Below are positions 1,935 to 21,172 of a stretch of DNA of 25,814 nucleotides, piece by piece. The position numbers were made by a program, and so were the translations under genes. The notes below the pieces were generated by a model. The model did not search any database. It saw only the letters and a list, made by a program, of their open reading frames with translations, and was not told the origin of the DNA. The DNA is from Caldisericota bacterium (GTDB lineage: Bacteria > Caldisericota > JANLFM01). Each line of letters begins with the position of its first letter. Position 1 is the stretch's first letter. Location: positions 1 to 25,814 of the forward strand of contig JANLFM010000016.1 of assembly GCA_024655865.1 (NCBI GenBank), given 5' to 3'.

Positions 1935-2950
1935 ATGTTACATGCAGGGATGGACATGCACAAGCACTTCTCCGTGGTGACGGTAGTGGATGACAGCGGA
2001 AACGAGGTGGTGAAAGGGAAGAAGTTGGAAAACAGGGACCTCGAGATAGTCGAGTTCTTCAAAAGCCTTCAGGATAAATTAAGGGTAGTGATTGAGGCTG
2101 GATCAAACTGGATGTGGATGACGGACCTTCTGGATGATTACGGGATCGAGAATCTACTTTGTCATCCCCTCAAGACCAAGGCTATAGCATCAGCCAGGAT
2201 CAAAACGGACAAACTGGACTCTTTAACCCTATCCCAGCTTCTTAGAGCCAACTTCATCCCTGAGGCCTACAAGCCAGATCAGAAAGCGAGGAGCTTGAGG
2301 GAGCTTTTAAGGTAGAGAGCCTTTCTTGTGGGTAAAAGGACCGGGATAAGGAACGCCATCCATGCTCTTTTAGCCCGAGGAAACATCTCAATTCCCTCAA
2401 GCGATATCTTCGGTAAAAAAGGGATGGAGTATCTCCTGAAGCTGGAACTTCCTCCTTTTAGAAGGTTCACCCTGGATGGTTACCTGGAAATATTGAAAGC
2501 CTTAACCCATGAGATCAAAAAGGCAGAGGAGAAGATAAAGGAGGAGTACAAAAGCTCACCCGAGGCCCAGCTCCTTTCTACGGTACCGGGGATAGGCCTC
2601 ATCCTTTCCCTGACAATTTTGTCGGAGATCGGAGAGATCTCCAGGTTCAAGAGGGCAAGGCAGCTCTCCTCATATTGTGGGCTTTGCCCTTCTACCGCTC
2701 AGTCGGGAAACACCTTAAAACATGGGAGGATCACCCGGCAGGGATCGAAATGGCTCAGGTTTGAGCCATTCAGGCTTCGGGAAAACCTGGTCCCTTGCGT
2801 GATTTCTACCTTAAGCTCAAGAAGAGAAAGGGAGGAAAGATAGCCAGAGTGGCGGTGGCCAGGAAGATCTCCACCTACGTATTCCACATGCTCAAGGAGG
2901 GGAAAACTTTCGAGGAGTTGATTTCCTTAAATTTGGACGCTCCAGGGTGA
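1935..2950 (+). pseudogene. IS110-family transposase, interrupted
   Basis: The N-terminal DEDD RuvC-like domain is visible: D7 in GMDMHKHF, E54 in VIEAG, and D92/D95 in RIKTDKLDS. An in-frame TAG at 2313-2315 breaks it, after which the same frame continues (GKRTGIRNAIH...). The C-terminal Tnp_20 domain follows, with VPGIGLILSLTILSEIG and CPSTAQSG carrying the family's serine. Near 2756-2775 a small deletion/frameshift disrupts the segment after GSKWLR. The terminal frame then resumes (AIQASGKPGPLRDFYLKLKK ... SLNLDAPG) and stops at 2948-2950. Total coding length would be about 340 residues, normal for the family. With two independent lesions the enzyme is most likely inactive. The amber codon alone could be read through if the host recodes TAG, but the frameshift could not be rescued that way. 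Confidence 0.85.
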
Positions 2951-10139: not shown

Positions 10140-11084
10140 ATGGAGAAGGAGATTTTTCAAATAGAGAAAGAGGAGGACCGAGGAAAAATCTCCACCGTTA
10201 AGGGGATAATTTTCAACATTCAACGTTACTCTATTCAAGACGGGCCGGGTATCAGAACTACCGTTTTCCTGAAGGGTTGCCCTCTGCATTGTCTTTGGTG
10301 CCACAACCCCGAAGGGATGAATCCCAAACCAGAAATCATCTGGTGGGAGAGAAGATGCCTGGGATGCAGGGAATGCCTCAAAACCTGTCCTCTGAGTACT
10401 GACATCTTCCCTCCAGTCTTCGATCCAGCTTGCAACTTCTGCGGGAAGTGCCTGGAGGTCTGCCCCGCCAAAGCCCTAGAGCTTGCGGGAAAGGAATTCA
10501 CTGTCCCAGAATTAATGGAGGAAATCCTCAAGGACCGAATTTTCTTCGATGTCTCTCAGGGTGGAGTTACCTTTTCAGGAGGTGAACCCCTTTTCCAGAG
10601 CCCATTCCTGCTTGAGATGCTTAAGGCCTGCAAGGAGGAGAGAGTACACACGACAGTGGACACCTCGGGATACGCCCCTGAAGGACTCTTTCAAGAAGTA
10701 GCGGGGCTTACTGACCTTTTCCTCTACGATTTGAAAATCATGGACGAGAAAAGACACCGCAGCTTTACCGGGGTTTCCAATTCCTTGATTCTGGAGAACC
10801 TCTCCTGGCTCGCCAAAGGAAAGAGAAAAGTGATCGTGCGCTTTCCGGTAATCCCTGGTATTAACGACGACGATCTAAATATCCAGCTCATGGGGGAATT
10901 TCTCTTATCCTTAAAAATCGAGGAAATAGATCTCATCCCCTACCACAAAATTGCCCAGGACAAGTACCGCAGGCTAAGGAGGGAATACCAGTTGTCTTCC
11001 CTGGAACCACCGGACCAGGGAAGACTGGAAAAAATAAAAATGACTTTAGAAAACTTTATACCTTTAGTGAAGATAGGAGGATGA
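10140..11084 (+). CDS. Glycyl-radical enzyme activating enzyme (radical SAM)
   Basis: Installs the glycyl radical on the partner enzyme encoded next. The radical-SAM cluster motif C47-x3-C51-x2-C54 is in GCPLHCLWCHNPE. Two inserted ferredoxin-type 4Fe-4S motifs follow (C73/C76/C79/C83 and C98/C101/C104/C108), as in the activases of non-PFL glycyl-radical enzymes. The SAM-binding TFSGGEP is at 144-150. The length of 314 residues is normal for this group. The ATG at 10140 has only a weak, distant AGGA site; family members usually begin close to KGIIFNIQRYSIQDGPG (21 onwards), so about 20 N-terminal residues are extra or the true start differs. It is spaced one base from the enzyme gene. Confidence 0.95.
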   Translation: MEKEIFQIEKEEDRGKISTVKGIIFNIQRYSIQDGPGIRTTVFLKGCPLHCLWCHNPEGMNPKPEIIWWERRCLGCRECLKTCPLSTDIFPPVFDPACNFCGKCLEVCPAKALELAGKEFTVPELMEEILKDRIFFDVSQGGVTFSGGEPLFQSPFLLEMLKACKEERVHTTVDTSGYAPEGLFQEVAGLTDLFLYDLKIMDEKRHRSFTGVSNSLILENLSWLAKGKRKVIVRFPVIPGINDDDLNIQLMGEFLLSLKIEEIDLIPYHKIAQDKYRRLRREYQLSSLEPPDQGRLEKIKMTLENFIPLVKIGG

Positions 11085-11085
11085 A

Positions 11086-13443
11086 ATGAGAGAAAGAGTA
11101 AAGAAGCTGAAAGAGGAGAGTTTGAACACTCAGCCCTGGATTTCAGAAGAGCGTGCTCTTTTAATCACCAGGTTTTACAGGGATTATGCCGATCCCCATC
11201 TCTCTGCGCCCATGCGCCGGGCCTTAGCATTCAAGCACCTGATGGCCAACAAGCAAATTTACATTGGGGAAAACGAGTTGATCGTAGGGGAAAGGGGACC
11301 CTCGCCCAGATCCTCCTATACCTACCCTGAAATTTGCTGCCACAGCCTGGAGGATCTGGAAATCTTGAACTCCCGCCCCAAGATACCCTATGCCGTTAGT
11401 GACGAGATGAAAAAGATCTACGCTGAGGAAATCATTCCTTTCTGGAAAGGAAAGGCCATGCGCGATCTCCTGTTCTCTCATATGTCCCAGGAATGGAAGA
11501 ACGCCTACGAAGCCGGTGTGTTCACGGAGTTCATGGAGCAGAGGGCACCGGGGCACACCGTCCTGGACGATAAAATTTATAAAAAGGGTCTTCGTGACTT
11601 CCAGGCAGAAATTGAGCTCGCCCTGGCCAGCTTGGATTATTTTAAAGACCCCGAGGCCTACAGGAAAAGCGAGGAGCTCAAGGCTATGCACGTTGCTTGC
11701 GAGGCCGTAATCCAGTTCGCTAACCGTCATGCAGACAAAGCTCTGGAGCTCGCGGAAAAGGAAACCAATCCCCAGCGCAAAAAGGAACTTTTAAGGATTG
11801 CTGAAGTTTGCCGCAGGGTGCCAGCTTACGCTCCCAGGGATTTTTGGGAAGCCCTCCAGGCGTACTGGTTCGTGCACCTGGGTGTGGTCACCGAGCTCAA
11901 TACCTGGGATTCCTTCTGCCCGGGTCACTTCGATCAGCACCTTTACCCCTTCTACAAAAAGGATCTCGAAGAAGGCAAGCTTACCGAGGAGGACGCCAAA
12001 GAGCTCTTAGAGTGTCTCTGGGTGAAGTTCAACAACCAGCCCGCTCCTCCCAAGGTGGGAGTCACCGCTCAGGAGAGCGCTACCTACACCGACTTCTGCA
12101 ACATTAATCTGGGAGGGATGAAACAGGACGGTTCCGATGCCGTGAACGATCTCACCTATCTGATCCTGGACGTGATTGACGAAATGAGGCTCGTCCAGCC
12201 CTCCTCCAACATCCAGCTTTCCAAGAAGAACCCGGACAAGTTCCTCCTCAGGGCTTGTGAAATTATCCGCAAGGGATGGGGTCAGCCCTCCGTGTTCAAC
12301 GCTGATCTGATCGTGGAAGAGCTCCTGCGCCAGGGAAAGAAAATCGAAGATGCCCGGGCCGGAGGAACATCGGGATGCGTGGAGACAGGAGCTTTCGGTA
12401 AGGAAGCCTACATCTTGAGTGGCTATTTCAATTTGGTGAAAGTCCTGGAGATCACCCTGAACAACGGCATGGACCCCCTCACGGGAAAGCTAATCGGTCT
12501 GCGTACCGGCGACCCGGAAAAATTCCAGTCCTATGAAGAGCTCTGGAATGCCTTTTCCAAACAGCTGGAGTATTTTATCGATATCAAAATCAGGGGCGGG
12601 AACATCATCGAGCGCCTCTATGCAGAGCACATGCCCGCACCTTTCCTCTCGGTTTTGATCGACGACTGCATCAAGAAAGGCAAGGATTATCACGATGGCG
12701 GGCCCCGTTACAACACCACCTACATTATGGGCACCGGTGTGGGCACTCTGACTGACAGCCTGAGCGCTTTGAAATACCACGTTTACACCCAGAAGAACTT
12801 ATCCATGAGGGAAGTCATGGAAGCGATCAAGACCAACTTTGAAAGTAACCCGCAACTGCGCCAGATACTCTGGGAGAAATCCCCCAGGTACGGTAACGAT
12901 GACCCCTTTGCTGATCAGATTCTCCAGGACTGGTTCAACCTCTTCTTCAATTTAGTTGCCGGGAGGCCCAACACTCGCGGGGGCAACTGGTACATCAACT
13001 TCCTTTCCACAACGGTTCACGTTTACTTCGGTTCCAAGGTGGGGGCAACTCCTGACGGCAGAAGGGCTTATCAGCCCCTCTCTGATGGTATTTCCCCCAC
13101 TCAAGGGACTGACCGCAAGGGGCCCACAGCGGTAATCAAATCCGCTTCCAAAATGGATCACGCGCGCACCGGAGGGACCCTTCTGAACATGAAGTTCACC
13201 CCTAAGGTCCTGGAAGGAGAAAACATCAAGAAGCTGGCTCAATTGATCAGGGCCTATTTCGCCCTGGACGGTCATCACGTGCAGTTCAACGTGGTAAACG
13301 CCGAGACCCTGAAAGCGGCACAGGTCAACCCTGAAGCTTACAGGGACTTAATTGTGCGCGTCGCGGGATACAGCGATTACTTCTGCGACCTGACCAAGGC
13401 TTTGCAGGATGAAATCATCGCCCGCACGGAGCACGAGATTTAA
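11086..13443 (+). CDS. Glycyl-radical enzyme, HypD-like
   Basis: A 785-residue oxygen-sensitive lyase/dehydratase of the pyruvate formate-lyase superfamily. The thiyl cysteine is Cys431 with Glu433 in TSGCVETGAFGKEA. The glycyl radical is Gly761 in VRVAGYSDYF. From memory of the clostridial trans-4-hydroxy-L-proline dehydratase HypD, the closest resemblance is to that enzyme along the whole length: TYPEICCH, EFMEQRAPGHT, TELNTWD, QPSSN, GCVETG, and the Tyr sixteen residues after the cysteine are all shared. HypD converts hydroxyproline to pyrroline-5-carboxylate. No P5C reductase gene is present here, so the substrate may differ; arylacetate decarboxylases and other GCVE-type enzymes are alternatives. 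AGGAGG lies 5 bases before the ATG. A strong terminator follows. Confidence 0.93.
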   Translation: MRERVKKLKEESLNTQPWISEERALLITRFYRDYADPHLSAPMRRALAFKHLMANKQIYIGENELIVGERGPSPRSSYTYPEICCHSLEDLEILNSRPKIPYAVSDEMKKIYAEEIIPFWKGKAMRDLLFSHMSQEWKNAYEAGVFTEFMEQRAPGHTVLDDKIYKKGLRDFQAEIELALASLDYFKDPEAYRKSEELKAMHVACEAVIQFANRHADKALELAEKETNPQRKKELLRIAEVCRRVPAYAPRDFWEALQAYWFVHLGVVTELNTWDSFCPGHFDQHLYPFYKKDLEEGKLTEEDAKELLECLWVKFNNQPAPPKVGVTAQESATYTDFCNINLGGMKQDGSDAVNDLTYLILDVIDEMRLVQPSSNIQLSKKNPDKFLLRACEIIRKGWGQPSVFNADLIVEELLRQGKKIEDARAGGTSGCVETGAFGKEAYILSGYFNLVKVLEITLNNGMDPLTGKLIGLRTGDPEKFQSYEELWNAFSKQLEYFIDIKIRGGNIIERLYAEHMPAPFLSVLIDDCIKKGKDYHDGGPRYNTTYIMGTGVGTLTDSLSALKYHVYTQKNLSMREVMEAIKTNFESNPQLRQILWEKSPRYGNDDPFADQILQDWFNLFFNLVAGRPNTRGGNWYINFLSTTVHVYFGSKVGATPDGRRAYQPLSDGISPTQGTDRKGPTAVIKSASKMDHARTGGTLLNMKFTPKVLEGENIKKLAQLIRAYFALDGHHVQFNVVNAETLKAAQVNPEAYRDLIVRVAGYSDYFCDLTKALQDEIIARTEHEI

Positions 13444-13800: not shown

Positions 13801-14223
13801 TTAATGATCTTCCACCCCCTGCTTCAAATTTTTTACCCTGAAGCAGAAGGGATCTCCGTCCCGTAAAGAGAAGTACTCCCTCAAAGAATGCGGAGAAGCA
13901 ATCTCCAGGAGCGCGGGGCGGATGCCCTTTTCCGGAAAGAGCACCGCCCCGGGAATACCTCCGTTCAGTTCCACAGGAACAGCCTTCACCGTCCCGTAGC
14001 GTCTCCCCTCCAAAACAAAGGAGGGGATAAAAAAGGTAGCGCTCTCATAGAGTTTGCGCCATTCCTCGAGAGCAACTTTTAAATTCAAAGTGCCGGGATA
14101 AACTTCCTGACCGATCAACTTTTCCAGGGCTTTCCTGTAGGGCTCAAGGGAAAGAAAGACCCGTCCTTTTCCCAGGCCGGAAGTCACCCGGCCACAAATT
14201 TTTAAAGGGAAACCCTCCTTCAC
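13801..14223 (-). CDS. CTP-dependent riboflavin kinase (archaeal RibK family)
   Basis: Predicted to phosphorylate riboflavin to FMN using CTP (DUF120 family). The 140-residue protein has the family's opening pattern GRVTSGLGKGRVFLSL (11-26), the hallmark YPGTLNLKV (42-50) and a closing SPHSLREYFSLRDGD stretch like the archaeal enzymes. It starts with GTG overlapping the stop of the transporter gene (GTGA), so it is translationally coupled and under the same FMN riboswitch. Most bacteria use the unrelated bifunctional RibF; this kinase family is best known from archaea. The pairing with a riboflavin importer and an FMN riboswitch independently supports the function. I give no symbol because bacterial usage varies. 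Confidence 0.88.
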   Translation of the reverse strand: MKEGFPLKICGRVTSGLGKGRVFLSLEPYRKALEKLIGQEVYPGTLNLKVALEEWRKLYESATFFIPSFVLEGRRYGTVKAVPVELNGGIPGAVLFPEKGIRPALLEIASPHSLREYFSLRDGDPFCFRVKNLKQGVEDH

Positions 14224-14786: not shown

Positions 14787-14797
14787 CTAATTAAAAA

Positions 14798-14907
14798 GAC
14801 CTTTTTCCATCCGGACTTTAACCGTCGGCTCCGGAATTTCACCGGATCTGCGCAAGGCGCTCGTGGGCTTTACCACCGGTCGGGGATTTCACCCTGCCCC
14901 AAAGGTC
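14798..14907 (-). promoter_or_regulatory. FMN riboswitch (RFN element)
   Basis: The minus strand reads the conserved RFN core in order: GGGGCAGGGTGAAATCCCCG, ACCGGTGGTAAAGCCCACGAG, a variable stem, GCAGATCCGGTGAAATTCCGG, and AGCCGACGGTTAAAGTCCGG ending in GGATGG. Helix P1 is formed by GACCTTT (14907-14901) with AAAGGTC (14804-14798). It precedes the riboflavin transporter and kinase genes, as expected for FMN-repressed uptake. Confidence 0.97.
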
Positions 14908-14914
14908 AAAAAAG

Positions 14915-14923
14915 ATTATAGCA
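14915..14923 (-). promoter_or_regulatory. Extended -10 promoter for the flavin operon
   Basis: TGCTATAAT, a perfect extended -10, places the transcription start at about 14908, exactly at the first base of riboswitch helix P1. It overlaps the stop codon of the upstream HD-protein gene. The -35 region is a poor match, consistent with an extended -10 promoter. Confidence 0.7.
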
Positions 14924-16949
14924 AATTTTGAGCTTTAGGTACCAGAACCTCTATTAAGTCTCCCTTCCTCAAGCGATAGGCGGGAATTAAAATCTTTTCG
15001 GGAAGCAAAAGTCCCCTTCTTGTTCCTCCATGGAAGCGGTTCTTAAGCAGGAAGTAAAGGTAATACCGGTCCTCTTCCCCGTTCCCCAGAGTCCCGGGCA
15101 ACTCCCAGCGAACTCCGTTTGAAAATTCGAGGGCTAATGTCCCTTTTCCCTTCCTCGCCCTTTTCAGTTCCCACTCTTGAGCGCTGAGGATTTCACCGTG
15201 GTGTTCTCCCGGTGGGAGAATTGTCATGGGAAGTCTGCCCTTCATCTTGCCAAAAATTTTTTCATAGATGATTTTCGATTCTTTAACCAATTTGTCCCTT
15301 TGGACCTTGAAGGTGGCAAACGTGGGAGAGATCGTTGTGGGTCGTCCTACCCTTTCTGAAAGTTGGGAAATGAACTTCTTGCATTCCTCAGTCATGGCCA
15401 TAAGGCGGGAAAAGGAGGGGCCCTTGCGCAGGATGAAGCGCAGGGCGATCAAAGCAGGAGCTCCCCCTCCCTCCCAGGTGCGAGAGACTTGAATGGGATC
15501 GGGAGGATGAAGCCAGGAAAAGACCTTATCCACAAAAAGCAGCGTGCGCTGCCTGAAGTCCTCCCATTCTTCCTCGCTCTTAAAGAGCTTCCTCAGATCC
15601 TTTCCCCTGCGTAAAACTTCCAGCTCTTTTTTCAGCAAGCGGAGCTTCTTCCTCTTGATCAGATACTCCTTTTGTTTGAGAGGGGTGAGCCTTCCCAGCT
15701 GGAGTCCTTTCTCCAAATTCTGCAGGTGCCTGGACAGGCTTTTGATCTCCGCTTGAAGCTCCTGGGCCTTTTCCCACCTAGCAAGCTCCAGAACCTGCTT
15801 TGTACGCTTGATCAAGCCCTGAAAGGTCAAACCCTCCTCAATGTGTTCCAGCCTTTTGGAAAACAGGGTATCGAAGTAATCCTTTCGTATGAAGTCCTCC
15901 AATCCCAGAAGGACAGCGTTTTCACCCTCGGGAACCGTGTACTTTTTCCTGAGCAGGGGCACTTCCCACCCTTCGTCCGGTACAAGGAAGCATTGAATGC
16001 GGATGCGCTTTCCCAGAACTTTCTCGCCCATTTTCTTAAGCTCACCTTTTAAGGGGATTGCTGCTGGAGAGATCAAGAAATAATAGTGGTTGTAGCTCTG
16101 GAAGAAGAAGTTTCCTAAAGGATACTTTTCCTCGATCAGGAGACGGAGTTTTCTCAAGTCCCCCTCTTCGGGATCTCCCTCGACCTCTGCAATCAGGATG
16201 GCCTGCTCGATTTCCTCCAGGTCCTGGGGAAGCTTTCCTTCCAAAAGATAGGAGGCAAGGCCAATTTTAAAGTAAGTGGCCACGGAATATGAGTGGTGAA
16301 AGAGGGTCAGATCGTTAGCGGAACGCCGGGTTTCTGCCAGCCCCCAGGAAAAATACCCCTCAAGAAGGGGAAGAAGCTTTCTCCTTGCGGAAACGGGCCT
16401 TGAAAGTGAGATTTCTCGCATTTCCTCCCAGAGTTCAGACCTCAGTTCGTCCAGCCTTTGAGGATCCAGAAGCTCTTCCATCCCGAAGACCGTGCTCTTG
16501 AAGGTCTGAAGGTAAGGCTGTTTAGCCTGGTCTGAGGGGTTAGCCTTATCCTCTGCGGAGCTTTTGCGGTCGCAGGCTTGAAGGAACTTCAGAAATTCCT
16601 GGATCTCCGTGGAGTTGTTCATCCTTTCATATCCGTGATGGGCAGAGAGAAAATGGGCAAAGAGCACCCCCTTAAGGAATCGGGGGGCAGGATCGGATCT
16701 CTTTGGCCAGAATCTTACAACCGGAGTTTGAAAAAAAGAGCGAGCATTTTCGGGAACAGGCTCTTCTGGCCACTCTAAAATTCCTGCGTGCCGATCGGTT
16801 TCCTTATAGTCGGAGGATTTGGCCCGGATAAAATGGGAGGAGAGCTTACCCAGATCGTGGAGAAGAGAGGCACACTCGCAGGCCAAAATCAGCCTTCTAA
16901 ATTGGCTTAGAGTTTCGAGCGATTTTTTTTCAGGATCTGGCGTCTTCAT
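14916..16949 (-). CDS. HD-domain protein resembling Cas10-like Csx11
   Basis: A 677-residue cytoplasmic protein. The N-terminal HD domain looks intact: ACECASLLHDLGKLSSHF (H31, D32), H54, FLSAHHGYERM (H104/H105) and ETRRSANDLTLFHHS (D213, H218/H219). The ND..LF.HS..VATYFK pattern is typical of Cas10/Csx11 large subunits of type III CRISPR effectors. A coiled-coil-rich, Lys/Glu-rich segment spans about 380-460. Further Csx11-like marks are PIQVSRTWE (486-493), FGKMKGRLP (566-573), NGVRWELPGTLG (611-622) and a closing GDLIEVLVP. No GGDD or equivalent cyclase palm motif is seen, and the protein is shorter than the roughly 900-1000 residues I associate with Csx11, so the palm region is reduced or lost. 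The ATG overlaps the upstream DUF4129 gene's stop (ATGA). There is no array or other cas gene in the window. The family call rests on motif recall. Confidence 0.6.
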   Translation of the reverse strand: MKTPDPEKKSLETLSQFRRLILACECASLLHDLGKLSSHFIRAKSSDYKETDRHAGILEWPEEPVPENARSFFQTPVVRFWPKRSDPAPRFLKGVLFAHFLSAHHGYERMNNSTEIQEFLKFLQACDRKSSAEDKANPSDQAKQPYLQTFKSTVFGMEELLDPQRLDELRSELWEEMREISLSRPVSARRKLLPLLEGYFSWGLAETRRSANDLTLFHHSYSVATYFKIGLASYLLEGKLPQDLEEIEQAILIAEVEGDPEEGDLRKLRLLIEEKYPLGNFFFQSYNHYYFLISPAAIPLKGELKKMGEKVLGKRIRIQCFLVPDEGWEVPLLRKKYTVPEGENAVLLGLEDFIRKDYFDTLFSKRLEHIEEGLTFQGLIKRTKQVLELARWEKAQELQAEIKSLSRHLQNLEKGLQLGRLTPLKQKEYLIKRKKLRLLKKELEVLRRGKDLRKLFKSEEEWEDFRQRTLLFVDKVFSWLHPPDPIQVSRTWEGGGAPALIALRFILRKGPSFSRLMAMTEECKKFISQLSERVGRPTTISPTFATFKVQRDKLVKESKIIYEKIFGKMKGRLPMTILPPGEHHGEILSAQEWELKRARKGKGTLALEFSNGVRWELPGTLGNGEEDRYYLYFLLKNRFHGGTRRGLLLPEKILIPAYRLRKGDLIEVLVPKAQNLL

Positions 16950-18655
16950 TTTCCCTGCACTCTCTTCTTCTCCTCTTCCTGGAACTTCCTCTCCACCTGA
17001 GCAAGGTCTTTCTCGAGTACAAGAACCCTCTCACTTGAGGGAGCGATTTGCGCGTAGCGCGCTTCAACGAAGGCCTCGGTCAGGTCTCCTACTTCCTCCT
17101 TAATGAAAGGCAAATAGCTCGCAGCGCGCCTCTCATATTCCCAGGGGGTTTCACTCTCACGCCTCTTTATCCCCTTTTCTTCAAGGATCCTGAGGAGTTT
17201 GAAGTAAAAGGATAAGGGGGAAAGGAAATCGCTTGTTTGAGGCCGAGCCTCTTTACTCCTCTTCCCTTGCTCCTTTATTTTGGGAAAGCGGCGCAGTCCG
17301 AATTTCAGAACGAAGAACAAGATCACGGCCAGGAGAACCGCACCTATTGTGATCAGGATCACGCTGGCTTGAGAGAAAAAGAGAGCAAGGGATCGGATAA
17401 ACTCCGCAATCCAATTTGAGGTTTCCGGGTTGACTCCTTCCCCCGGTCCAGTCGGCGTCCCTCCGGGAACCGCTATTCCTCTTTTCAATCCCAGGGCGGC
17501 GAATAAGGAATCAACACCTACCTTTAAATAGTAGAAGGCCTTTGTCAGGATCGGCCCAAGATAGGGAGGTAAAAGCCAGAGGGCAAGCGCCAGGATCCCC
17601 AAAGCAAGCAAAAAATAAAGCAGCGATTCGCCTTTACCGAAGCGAAAGTAGACAAAAGCCCCAATCAGGAAAAAGAGGATAATGGCAATGTAGGAGGAAT
17701 ATCCTCCTAAAACCTCAACCCAGGAGGGAAGAGAAAATGGGGGAAGCGTAATGTAAGGGAAGGTGCCGCTCGCGGGGGTACTCTGGGGGATGGAGGGGGG
17801 TGGGGAGGTAGAAGCTTCAAGGGGTGGAACTTTTGGAAGAAAAGACTGAAAATGAACTGCACTGCCCCAGGCCCAGGGAAACAGGAAAATTAAAAGAGGG
17901 ACCAGGACCAGAAGAGACCACAGGACGACCCTTTTTAGATCGCCTTTCTCGTGACGTAAGCGCAAGGAACGCCATCTCTCAGCCCTGGCACGCCAGAGCA
18001 GAAGCAAAAAGAGAGAAACGAGCACCATCAATTCCAGAGGGAAGAAGAAGGGGAAGGTACGCGTGGGTTCCAGCCACACCAACAAAAGAAGGGTAATAAT
18101 TAGGAACCATCCCCAGGAGTTGTAGCGAAGAGCCCTGTCCATGCTTACCCCAGCCGGAAGCCAGAGTAAAATGGAAAGGGTGAAAAAAAGAGCTGCTGTG
18201 GCATTGTGATTTAAGGAAACAAGCTCTCCCACCTTTAGTGGGGAAAGGAGGTCCTTTCCCAGCCCAAAAAGATTTTGAAAGCCGGTTCCCAGCTCTTTAA
18301 GCCAGGTATTGTCCAGGGGGTAAATGGAGGGATAAAAAATCACCTTCTCAAAGAGGAGGATAAGCAAAAAACCCCAGAGCCAACCGTGAAGGCTTTTATT
18401 TATTCTGACCTGGAATAAGGAAAAAAGCAGGGAGGAGTAAAAAACAACCAATAATCCCCAGAAAAGGGGCCTCGTAGTCAGCTGGCCCAGGAAAAGAGCG
18501 TGGAGCCCAAATTGCAGGAAAACGAGGAAGATGATCAGAAAGGGAATACGACTCCTATCCTTTCTTCCTCCTTCGGCTGCATATCCTGGCTGGTGTCTTC
18601 GGGAAGGAAAGGTTGGTCTGAAGCGCAAAAACCTTGCGGGAGTGGGAACTTCCAT
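16946..18655 (-). CDS. Polytopic membrane protein with C-terminal DUF4129
   Basis: A 569-residue protein with a basic N-terminus and roughly ten predicted membrane helices (first at about 37-57, 63-82, 91-108; later ones near 150-220, 243-265, 315-365 and 430-455). A short Pro/Ser/Thr-rich extracytoplasmic linker lies near residue 280-300. The cytoplasmic C-terminal region (about 480-555: YFKLLRILEEKGIKRRESET, PWEYERRA...) matches the DUF4129 domain found at the end of TgpA-type transglutaminase-like proteins. The Cys-His-Asp transglutaminase core that normally sits between the membrane parts is absent. The ATG has AGAGGTGG upstream and starts two bases after the DUF58 stop; the end overlaps the next gene. 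Confidence 0.8.
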   Translation of the reverse strand: MEVPTPARFLRFRPTFPSRRHQPGYAAEGGRKDRSRIPFLIIFLVFLQFGLHALFLGQLTTRPLFWGLLVVFYSSLLFSLFQVRINKSLHGWLWGFLLILLFEKVIFYPSIYPLDNTWLKELGTGFQNLFGLGKDLLSPLKVGELVSLNHNATAALFFTLSILLWLPAGVSMDRALRYNSWGWFLIITLLLLVWLEPTRTFPFFFPLELMVLVSLFLLLLWRARAERWRSLRLRHEKGDLKRVVLWSLLVLVPLLIFLFPWAWGSAVHFQSFLPKVPPLEASTSPPPSIPQSTPASGTFPYITLPPFSLPSWVEVLGGYSSYIAIILFFLIGAFVYFRFGKGESLLYFLLALGILALALWLLPPYLGPILTKAFYYLKVGVDSLFAALGLKRGIAVPGGTPTGPGEGVNPETSNWIAEFIRSLALFFSQASVILITIGAVLLAVILFFVLKFGLRRFPKIKEQGKRSKEARPQTSDFLSPLSFYFKLLRILEEKGIKRRESETPWEYERRAASYLPFIKEEVGDLTEAFVEARYAQIAPSSERVLVLEKDLAQVERKFQEEEKKRVQGK

Positions 18656-18656
18656 T

Positions 18657-19889
18657 TCAAGACACCACCTCTAAGGGTTCGTTTCCTCCAATCAGGTGCA
18701 CACTGATATTTTGCTCTTCCAGTATTCCTGACATTCGGCGCAACTCGGAGACCTCGATAGGATCAAGCAGGAAGTTATACCTGGGTTTTTCCCCTGGGAG
18801 CAAGAATGAACCTTCATAGAGCAAGTAGAGGGAGAGATGTCTACTGCGCAGCCTTAGCTCCACAAGCCTATAAAGGAACTGCTTGTTTAAAACAGAGGAA
18901 ATAAACACAAGGTTCGATTGCCAGGGCATGTGGGGAGCTGCTAGGCCCATGTGCTGAAGGAGATTACCCTCCTTTGCTCTTGCTCTGGCGAGTATTTCCA
19001 TCTGCCTGAGGAAGTGGTCTTTCCCTTTCCCTAAAGAAAGTTCTCCTTTCTCCTCGGGAAAAACCTTAAGCAGTGTGGGAATGTGTTCCTCGGAAGCGTA
19101 ATAAAGGATGGATGCCGCAATCATGCAAGCGTATTCCTCGTAGACCTCCATAAAGTCCTTGCTGTGCCCTGTGGAAACGAGGTCCAACCAAACTGCTAAG
19201 GTGGTGGATGAAGAAAACTCAAACTCTTTCACCATAAGTTTGCCCAGGTGGGCTGTGACCTTCCAGTGTACGCGCTTCAAAGGATCAAAAGGGAAGTATT
19301 CACGGAGCCCAGAAATTGCCGTGTAATCCTCATAAGCCCTGATCCCTGATTTCTTCCCCTCGAAGGGTTTCCTCAGGGGCAGGTTGATGGTGGCGATGGG
19401 AATTATCCGGGGGAAAACCATCAGGCTAGCCGGGGCATCAAAGCTCCTCTCCTTGCGCCAGAGGCACCAGGGATCGCCCGCGGAGACCACTAAAGGGCGC
19501 AGATTGTATTCCCCCCTTTTATTGAGCAGGGCGCGATAGGTAAGGACCCTTTTTTCCCTGCCCTTGAGGCTCAAGGCAAAGCGCGGTGGGCCATCATGTG
19601 GAATCATGTAAGGTTGGAAATTGTCCCAGATCTCTAACCAGACCAGAGGCAAAGAACTGGGGTTTTCCACAACAAGTTCTATCTGGGCCACCTCCCCAGA
19701 GGAGAGCCGGGTGGGTTTCACTCTGCGCTCCAGCTTTAGTCTCGCAAAAGCCCTCCAGGTCAGGAAATACCCTAAAAGGGACAGGAGGAAGAGAAAGAGC
19801 AAAAAGAGGAAAGCGGTCTTTCCCCCGAAAAAGACCAGGAGAACGACAGAAAATAAAGCCAGTAAAAGCACTCCTGGTCTTAAGCGCAA
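18657..19889 (-). CDS. DUF58 protein
   Basis: A 410-residue membrane-anchored protein of the DUF58 family, usually encoded with MoxR ATPases and transglutaminase-like proteins. Two N-terminal helices (about 8-44) are followed by an extracytoplasmic or beta-rich region with Ig-like character. The DUF58 hallmark at 195-224 reads LREYFPFDPLKRVHWKVTAH then KLMVKEFE, close to the family's RxYxxGDxxRxIxWxxTAR pattern. A vWA-like C-terminal half follows (LAVWLDL). The start is a TTG with AAGGAAG upstream, 11 bases after the ACP stop. No MoxR gene is adjacent. The biological role of the family is poorly defined; envelope-complex assembly is the general idea. Confidence 0.85.
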   Translation of the reverse strand: MRLRPGVLLLALFSVVLLVFFGGKTAFLFLLFLFLLSLLGYFLTWRAFARLKLERRVKPTRLSSGEVAQIELVVENPSSLPLVWLEIWDNFQPYMIPHDGPPRFALSLKGREKRVLTYRALLNKRGEYNLRPLVVSAGDPWCLWRKERSFDAPASLMVFPRIIPIATINLPLRKPFEGKKSGIRAYEDYTAISGLREYFPFDPLKRVHWKVTAHLGKLMVKEFEFSSSTTLAVWLDLVSTGHSKDFMEVYEEYACMIAASILYYASEEHIPTLLKVFPEEKGELSLGKGKDHFLRQMEILARARAKEGNLLQHMGLAAPHMPWQSNLVFISSVLNKQFLYRLVELRLRSRHLSLYLLYEGSFLLPGEKPRYNFLLDPIEVSELRRMSGILEEQNISVHLIGGNEPLEVVS

Positions 19890-19900
19890 ACTTCTTCCTT

Positions 19901-20140
19901 TCAGGCTTTCTTCTTAAGCACGTACTCCAGGGCGTCCCCTACGGTCCTCAATTGAGGTAGATCCTCATCGGGGATTTTTATCCCAAAGGTATCCTCCACA
20001 GCCATAACAATGGACAGAAGGTCTAAAGAATCAGCGTTCAGGTCCTTTAAGAATTCGGTCTTCTCTTCCAGATCGCCTTTGTAATTTAGCTTTTCTCTCA
20101 CAATCTGCTTTAAAGTCTCCAAAATCTGCACTCTATCCAT
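19901..20140 (-). CDS. Acyl carrier protein
   Basis: A 79-residue acidic four-helix carrier protein. The 4'-phosphopantetheine attachment serine is Ser38 in LNADSLDLLSIVMAVED, followed by the typical FGIKIPDEDLPQLRTVGDAL. It would carry acyl groups for fatty-acid or specialised lipid synthesis. AAGGAGG lies before the ATG, and a good promoter is seen just upstream. No fatty-acid synthase gene is adjacent; instead it precedes DUF58 and DUF4129 genes on the same strand. It may be the housekeeping ACP located away from the fab cluster, or a dedicated carrier for an envelope modification; the sequence does not decide. Confidence 0.93.
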   Translation of the reverse strand: MDRVQILETLKQIVREKLNYKGDLEEKTEFLKDLNADSLDLLSIVMAVEDTFGIKIPDEDLPQLRTVGDALEYVLKKKA

Positions 20141-20203: not shown

Positions 20204-20554
20204 TCACCGCCTCTCCGGCTGATGTTTCTTGCGTTTGAAAAGAGTGGTCAGGAAGGCGGCTCCCAGAGCGAAGACAAATCCCAGGAGGCCAGATCTGAGC
20301 ATTCTGGCTCTTTTCCTGAGTGTCTCTTTTTCCCTTCGGATTCGCTCTAACACTCCTTCCGCGAGCGTTCTCGGGGCCTTCAGGATATTGTCCCGTTCCC
20401 TGTTTAAAAGTTCCCTGTTCCTCACAAGCTCCTCAAATTTCCTTTTGCATGTGGGGCAAGAAGAGAGGTGTTTCTCGAGCTCCAGACGCTTTGCTTCCGG
20501 AAGTTCCCCTTCCAGGTAGGCGGGCATTAAGGAGGCGGCTTCTTCGCAGCGCAT
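20204..20554 (-). CDS. Zinc-binding anti-sigma factor
   Basis: A 116-residue protein with the ZAS anti-sigma signature H29-x3-C33-x2-C36 (KHLSSCPTC) in its N-terminal half. A basic helical linker follows, then one membrane helix (about 85-105, LLGFVFALGAAFLTTLF) and a short basic tail. It would bind and hold the ECF sigma factor at the membrane. The ATG directly abuts the sigma stop (TGA-ATG), the standard co-translational pairing. Confidence 0.9.
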   Translation of the reverse strand: MRCEEAASLMPAYLEGELPEAKRLELEKHLSSCPTCKRKFEELVRNRELLNRERDNILKAPRTLAEGVLERIRREKETLRKRARMLRSGLLGFVFALGAAFLTTLFKRKKHQPERR

Positions 20555-21124
20555 TCAAGCACCCTCTTTGTCTGTTCCGCTCTCAAGCTGGCGGAATCTG
20601 CTTTTGAAATCCAGGCGAGCTCGATAAATCCTAATTTTTGTCGCCTGGAGAGAGATCTTCAAGAGGTGGGAGATCTCCTCGTAGGAGAATCCGTAAATAT
20701 CCCTTAAAACCAGAACCGAACGATAAATAGGGTTCATCTTTTCTAATATCTCCTCTAACCTGTCCTTCACCTCAATTCTATCCATTTCCTCGTCGATTGT
20801 AACATCGGTCTCAGGGAATCGTTCCTCCTGTTCATCTGGCCAGGAAAGGGAAACCCGCCTTTCCCTCTTTCTCTTTTTAATATAGTCCAGGCAAATGTTT
20901 GCTGTTATCCGGTAAAGCCAGGTTGTGAACTCCGAGCGTCCTTGAAATTTGGAAAGGGATTTCCATACCCTGAAAAAGACATCCTGGGCAGCATCCAGAG
21001 CGTCATCCGGGTTTGCCAGGATCCTTAAAGCCACGGTGTACACCAAGTTTTGGTGTTCGCTCACTATCTGAGCGAAGGCCTCTTCGTCCCCTTTCTGGGC
21101 TCTTTTCAATACCTCGGGATCCAT
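20555..21124 (-). CDS. ECF RNA polymerase sigma factor
   Basis: A group IV sigma factor of about 189 residues. Region 2 is clear: AQKGDEEAFAQIV, then DALDAAQDVFFRVWKSLSKF and FTTWLYRITANICLDYIKK. Region 4 follows: ILEKMNPIYRSVLVLRDIYG, FSYEEISHLLKISLQATKIR. I prefer the ATG at 21124 because MDPEVLKRAQKGDEEAF matches the usual N-terminus, but it has no SD. A GTG at 21160, with AGGA four bases before it, would add 12 residues and place the start inside a long palindrome. The partner anti-sigma factor follows at once. The target genes are unknown; the ACP-DUF58-DUF4129-HD run downstream is a candidate by position. Confidence 0.92.
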   Translation of the reverse strand: MDPEVLKRAQKGDEEAFAQIVSEHQNLVYTVALRILANPDDALDAAQDVFFRVWKSLSKFQGRSEFTTWLYRITANICLDYIKKRKRERRVSLSWPDEQEERFPETDVTIDEEMDRIEVKDRLEEILEKMNPIYRSVLVLRDIYGFSYEEISHLLKISLQATKIRIYRARLDFKSRFRQLESGTDKEGA

Positions 21125-21141
21125 TGATTTATAAATTTTTA

Positions 21142-21172
21142 CCCCAGGAAAATGTATCACATTTTCCTGGGG
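21142..21172. repeat. 14-bp-arm perfect palindrome before the sigma gene
   Basis: CCCCAGGAAAATGT (21142-21155) and ACATTTTCCTGGGG (21159-21172) are exact inverted copies separated by ATC. It lies between the tsaB stop and the preferred sigma-factor start. No T-run follows on either strand, so it is more likely an operator or a leader hairpin than a terminator. Confidence 0.85.

Follow-up and report, generated by a model that had tools for sequence, protein, structure and literature searches.

The gene at positions 14916 to 16949 (minus strand) of the 25,814-nucleotide stretch of Caldisericota DNA analysed here (the window) encodes a 677-residue HD protein related to Csx11/Cas10c, the large subunit of type III-C CRISPR systems, in a window where no GGDD motif, cas gene or CRISPR array was found. 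The reading we favour, though with some reserve, is that this protein is a stand-alone and vertically inherited descendant of a III-C Cas10 which has lost its effector parts, kept the HD site and taken up a housekeeping or stress role. The relevant features of the window are the following.

14795..14910 (-), FMN riboswitch, immediately 3' of the HD stop codon, part of the next unit
14916..16949 (-), gene for the stand-alone Csx11/Cas10c-like HD protein, 677 aa (TIGR02682, PADLOC Cas10c, profile alignment)
14934..15152 (-), residues 600-672, C-terminal beta-rich segment, NGVRWELP...YYLYF...LIPAYRLRKGDLIEV, common to Csx11
15210..15329 (-), residues 541-580, palm 2 remnant, FGKMKGRLP corresponding to FGKVIGKLP of Csx11
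15351..15422 (-), residues 510-533, helix GPSFSRLMAMTEECKKF (PSxSRL), counterpart of Csx11 NPSPARLYRIWRETEEFF
15609..15824 (-), residues 376-447, long helical/coiled-coil region with an [RK]HxxNL motif (H408 and N411 invariant)
15984..16202 (-), residues 250-322, degenerate palm-1-like beta-alpha-beta-beta-alpha-beta domain (structure model and profile alignment)
16230..16949 (-), residues 1-240, HD domain (invariant residues in 19 homologues; Csx11/Cas10c matches)
16946..18655 (-), DUF4129 membrane protein gene, ATGA overlap with the HD gene
18657..19889 (-), DUF58 protein gene
19901..20140 (-), acyl-carrier-protein-like gene, 79 aa (genus homologue matches PF00550)
20204..20554 (-), zf-HC2 (anti-sigma type) protein gene
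20555..21160 (-), ECF sigma factor gene, first in the conserved block

The HD reading frame runs through 677 codons without internal stops, and its start codon overlaps the DUF4129 stop codon in the sequence ATGA, as the initial annotation had it. The acyl-carrier-protein-like gene, which is shorter than the length cutoff of the ORF list, lies between the anti-sigma and DUF58 genes; it is conserved in the family and is an odd partner for DUF58/DUF4129. The unit 3' of the HD gene comprises a riboflavin transporter component and a CTP-dependent riboflavin kinase, and assignment of the FMN riboswitch to this unit sets the downstream limit of the HD-gene operon. The kinase (13801-14223 (-); PF01982, E 1.3e-24) is of the archaeal type, here in a bacterium, and its companion behind the riboswitch is an ECF riboflavin-type transporter component. 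Elsewhere in the window are found a 785-aa glycyl-radical enzyme (PF02901, PF01228) with its activase (10140-13443 (+)) and two neighbouring ORFs that resemble a broken IS110-type transposase (1935-2843 (+)).

The kinship with Csx11, first proposed on the strength of a few motifs, was borne out by profile searches, whose matches were specific to Csx11/Cas10c and not confined to unrelated HD hydrolases. The HD protein matched TIGR02682 (cas_csx11) with E 3.5e-26 at 91.8 bits, a score short of the curated cutoff of 248.95 bits, and the PADLOC Cas10c profile with E 1.5e-37; the latter is matched by 18 of 19 stand-alone homologues (hereafter orphans). When a profile of four members of the window's family was compared with one of five true Csx11s, the two were colinear over residues 2-668 (614 columns, E 8.2e-34), and the C-terminal motifs held in the alignment; against Csm1, the type III-A Cas10, the HD part alone aligned (E 2.8e-8). 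The C-terminal part by itself matched Csx11 (E 3.4e-8, with a score not reached in any of 300 column shuffles; reversed control 0.49) and gave no match to the Csm1 profile (E 0.33). In an earlier set, one of 100 column shuffles had scored 134.7, above the real value, a result absent from 300 more (maximum 24.2). Pfam returned only a sub-threshold match to Cas3_HD (PF18019; 14.8 bits, E 0.029, gathering cutoff 23.1), the Cas3'' profile TIGR01596 matched below its cutoff (E 5.3e-4), and sequence searches of the PDB with the protein, the orphan profile and the Csx11 profile gave nothing relevant.

The residues H31/D32, H54, H104 and D213 named in the initial annotation are all present, as are the three segments that it quoted (residues 206-220, 566-574 and 611-622). 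The HD positions invariant in 19 aligned homologues are H31 D32, D52, H54, H104 H105, D127, T207 R208, D213 and H219; among them H31 D32, H54, H104 H105 and D213 supply the H, HD, H and D metal ligands of the HD phosphohydrolase superfamily, with exceptions in the Coprothermobacter clade. A cysteine knuckle (HHGCxRC...C), which may bind a further metal or an Fe-S cluster, lies directly at the HD metal site in 18 of 30 orphans by a simple pattern (e.g., L044, L043, L116); it occurs in most orphans outside the window's family and was lost within that family.

The initial annotation had seen no GGDD palm. This is correct for the catalytic palm, the GGDD cyclase motif being absent from all 30 orphans, and has to be amended in that the first palm persists in degenerate form and part of the second is left. 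Residues 250-322 are colinear with the Csx11 segment IPIGN.IYEDTNGIYFTFP (PIGN.IYEDTNGIYF). AlphaFold2 models of two sequences had a mean pLDDT of 40-43 and were usable only for these residues (about 50-84 by 10-residue block); Foldseek with this fragment returned generic ferredoxin-like folds only (best E 0.05). The helical region at residues 376-447 occupies the place taken in Csx11 by the Zn-finger and the first half of palm 2. The Zn-finger pair (CxxC...CxxC) is absent from the region between the palms in 30 of 30 orphans, the Csx11 alignment skips the first half of palm 2, and it stops at Csx11 column 884 of 1028, leaving the HD protein with neither a complete palm 2 nor the C-terminal helical domain. 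Since the Zn-finger is common to Csx11 and Csm1, in which it is aligned, its absence from the orphans is best read as a loss, which favours descent from a III-C-type Cas10 by reduction over an independent HD family. Of the two options left by the initial annotation, the reduced descendant thus fits better, and the separate HD family less well, because the protein lacks the Zn-finger and palm-2 parts seen in full-length Cas10s and has the parts specific to Csx11.

The protein shares with Csx11 the HD motifs, the degenerate palm 1, the PSxxRL helix, the FGKxxxxLP palm-2 remnant and the C-terminal beta-rich segment, in identical order, and neither has an active cyclase. In III-C Cas10s at large the cyclase is inactive and an HD nuclease is recognisable in about half (PMC11229360, PMC12669027). 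Nevertheless, given the missing Zn-finger, half palm 2, GGDD and C-terminal helical domain and the score below the family cutoff, the HD protein does not strictly qualify as a Csx11; it also differs in lacking RAMP neighbours and in being vertically inherited. With the Cas3''/Cas3 HD nucleases it has the HD motif and weak profile similarity in common, but it falls below their cutoffs, has no helicase partner, and its domain order and C-terminal parts are of the Csx11 type. Csm1, encoded elsewhere in the same phylum, has an HD domain homologous to that of the orphans by profiles (E 4e-11); unlike them, it carries GGDD, Zn-finger and palm 2, and has csm neighbours.

Association with envelope genes proved to be a local trait. 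The initial annotation had coupled the HD protein to a membrane-protein operon, and linkage to DUF58/DUF4129 is indeed kept within the window's family, in four genomes: the block of sigma, anti-sigma, acyl-carrier, DUF58, DUF4129 and HD genes recurs in G004, which represents the family's second genus, and in G001, and an overlapping part of it in G002. In other families, the orphan has radical-SAM genes or phosphopentomutase as neighbours, is arranged head-to-head with phoH, or lies within a few genes of gyrB. At the threshold applied, DUF58 homologues are absent from five good genomes that carry the HD gene, and those found elsewhere are unlinked to it. Linkage to envelope genes is therefore a trait of one family and gives no clue to the general function, and the variation of neighbours between families indicates no single pathway. 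In one Coprothermobacter-like genome (L121 8439-12550), a divergent orphan with the motif HDINK faces phoH head-to-head, and a membrane HD protein comes next.

Conservation of the metal-site residues in all but the Coprothermobacter genus clade makes it likely that the HD protein is a metal-dependent hydrolase, presumably a nuclease or phosphodiesterase. Makarova et al. (2011) raised, as speculation, that an HD-linked ancestor had served in signalling or repair (PMC3150331), and the HD domains of Cas10s cut single-stranded DNA once the effector has bound its target RNA (PMC11229360). Presumably the HD domain acts here as a metal-dependent hydrolase on single-stranded nucleic acid or another phosphodiester, while the degenerate palm and the C-terminal beta-rich part would bind the substrate, or else a partner protein, instead of crRNA and RAMP subunits. 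Freed from the complex, such a protein might cut nucleic acid or else act on a nucleotide. In the window's family the gene would have entered an envelope operon led by an ECF sigma gene, and by virtue of this position the protein is probably made when the operon is switched on. Altogether, its role is probably that of an enzyme in housekeeping or stress, not that of a CRISPR effector.

Among the alternatives, a small-molecule HD hydrolase fares best, and we consider it possible if rather unlikely. The protein would then not be a nuclease but would degrade a nucleotide, cyclic nucleotide or other phosphodiester signal, its reduced palm sensing or binding the nucleotide, and would, jointly with the ECF sigma operon, tune a stress or envelope response. 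Nucleotides are frequent substrates of HD domains, and the linkage to ECF sigma, acyl-carrier and membrane proteins would suit such a role, as would the membrane HD protein two genes away from the Coprothermobacter orphan. Against this, the protein falls by its HD motifs into the Cas10/Cas3 nuclease group (Csx11, 3.5e-26; Cas3'', 5e-4) and not among signalling HD families, and the neighbours are not conserved.

In the whole genome (96% complete), no match to the RAMP family PF03787 was found. The rest of the genome is not devoid of CRISPR elements: it has an array of nine repeats and, on another contig, a type I-B-like operon for Cas1, a Cas3 helicase, a Cas8b-like protein, Cas7, Cas5b and Cas2. 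The Cas3 helicase has no HD domain, and the HD protein might accordingly be pictured as a spare nuclease subunit that serves in trans the effectors encoded elsewhere in the genome. We deem this improbable. The type I-B-like operon encodes an HD protein of its own (L091 2812-3750, motif CHDLGK), for which reason a need of this system for the protein studied here was rejected; that protein has lost the Zn-finger, the C-terminal helical domain and half of palm 2; and the orphan is kept in five good genomes without Cas1 or RAMP matches (G004, G007, G014, G019, G020), so that its presence is not tied to CRISPR. Nor do its homologues always lie in complete cas loci, since no cas gene was recognised next to any orphan in the neighbourhood survey. 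In the sister genome, a type III-A locus encodes a Cas10 of its own. True Csx11 genes (950-1217 aa), present in the same phylum and elsewhere, are all flanked by RAMP genes.

A single scan of GTDB genome contigs found only one relative, 72% identical, in a Caldisericota metagenome-assembled genome with identical gene order. Protein and profile searches of relatives extended the family to 30 full-length stand-alone homologues from two thermophilic groups, 22 from Caldisericota genomes of four families and eight from a second, Coprothermobacterota-like phylum, where 8 of 9 genomes have one; fragments at contig edges were seen in two further Caldisericota genomes. A further survey of 386 genomes, overlapping the first, returned the known orphans, Csx11-type proteins and new matches in G435 (1015-aa frame) and G420 (325-aa frame), and no additional confirmed stand-alone form. 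The forms from the genus Coprothermobacter, 434-437 aa long, diverge strongly: HDINK replaces HDxGK and, by eye, the position of D213 is S. They are included for their HD start, HH, H-x-x-N in most, and matches to the orphan profile (E 2e-7 to 3e-7). Their altered motif suggests that HD catalysis may not be universal in the family.

In trees of the N-terminal part, orphans and Csx11 together split from Csm1 (100/100), every orphan clade corresponds to one taxonomic family, and the true Csx11s, sampled by six sequences only, form a clade of their own with 94-95% support. The order of branching among the orphan families and Csx11 was not settled, and a single orphan clade was not rejected (p-AU 0.42). 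These patterns bear on the idea of a stand-alone anti-phage effector, to which we give still less credence than to a subunit acting in trans. The ancestors were defence proteins, and PADLOC labels nearly all orphans tried as Cas10c. Defence genes usually move between genomes, yet here the phylogeny tracks taxonomy, and synteny is stable within families beside core genes such as gyrase, phoH and phosphopentomutase. Searches of viral contigs gave no relative of the HD protein.

Close orphan pairs gave pN/pS values of 0.18-0.28, synonymous sites being saturated in the window's own pair; by this sequence-based measure, the orphans are under purifying selection. That the gene is what is left of a local type III-C locus in decay, as the length of its product against that of Csx11 (677 and about 950-1077 aa) might suggest, is hardly credible with frames open in all families under such selection, invariant catalytic residues and the true Csx11s of the phylum in a separate clade.

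As to when the reduction took place, the chances seem to us evenly balanced that a III-C-like Cas10 was co-opted for a CRISPR-independent cellular function in the ancestry shared by Caldisericota and Coprothermobacterota, where it shed the cyclase and complex-binding parts and kept the HD hydrolase. Our search of the open-access literature brought up no stand-alone Csx11-like HD family, and the only stand-alone Cas10 relative found was mCpol, the minimal CRISPR polymerase of the Panoptes system, which keeps the cyclase and lacks the HD domain (PMC12657230, PMC12657218). Both lie outside CRISPR loci, but mCpol has an active palm and is a defence gene, whereas the orphans keep the HD domain without an active cyclase. 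If co-option is correct, the orphan family would be the mirror image of mCpol, tied in one family into an ECF-sigma envelope regulon; CRISPR large subunits could then turn into ordinary cell genes, and Cas10-type HD chemistry would be open to study without a CRISPR complex. A practical warning is that automatic defence callers label the orphans Cas10c although, in the genomes concerned, they are part of no type III-C locus.

Several true III-C genes deserve mention. A short match in G380 is not an orphan but a frameshifted true III-C gene. At L094 6893-9757, the csx11 gene of a III-C locus is split into two ORFs (467 and 350 aa), likely by a frameshift. The Csx11 of another type III-C locus (L055 10611-14264) has about 250 extra N-terminal residues, which look like a fusion to a toxin-type nucleotidyltransferase.
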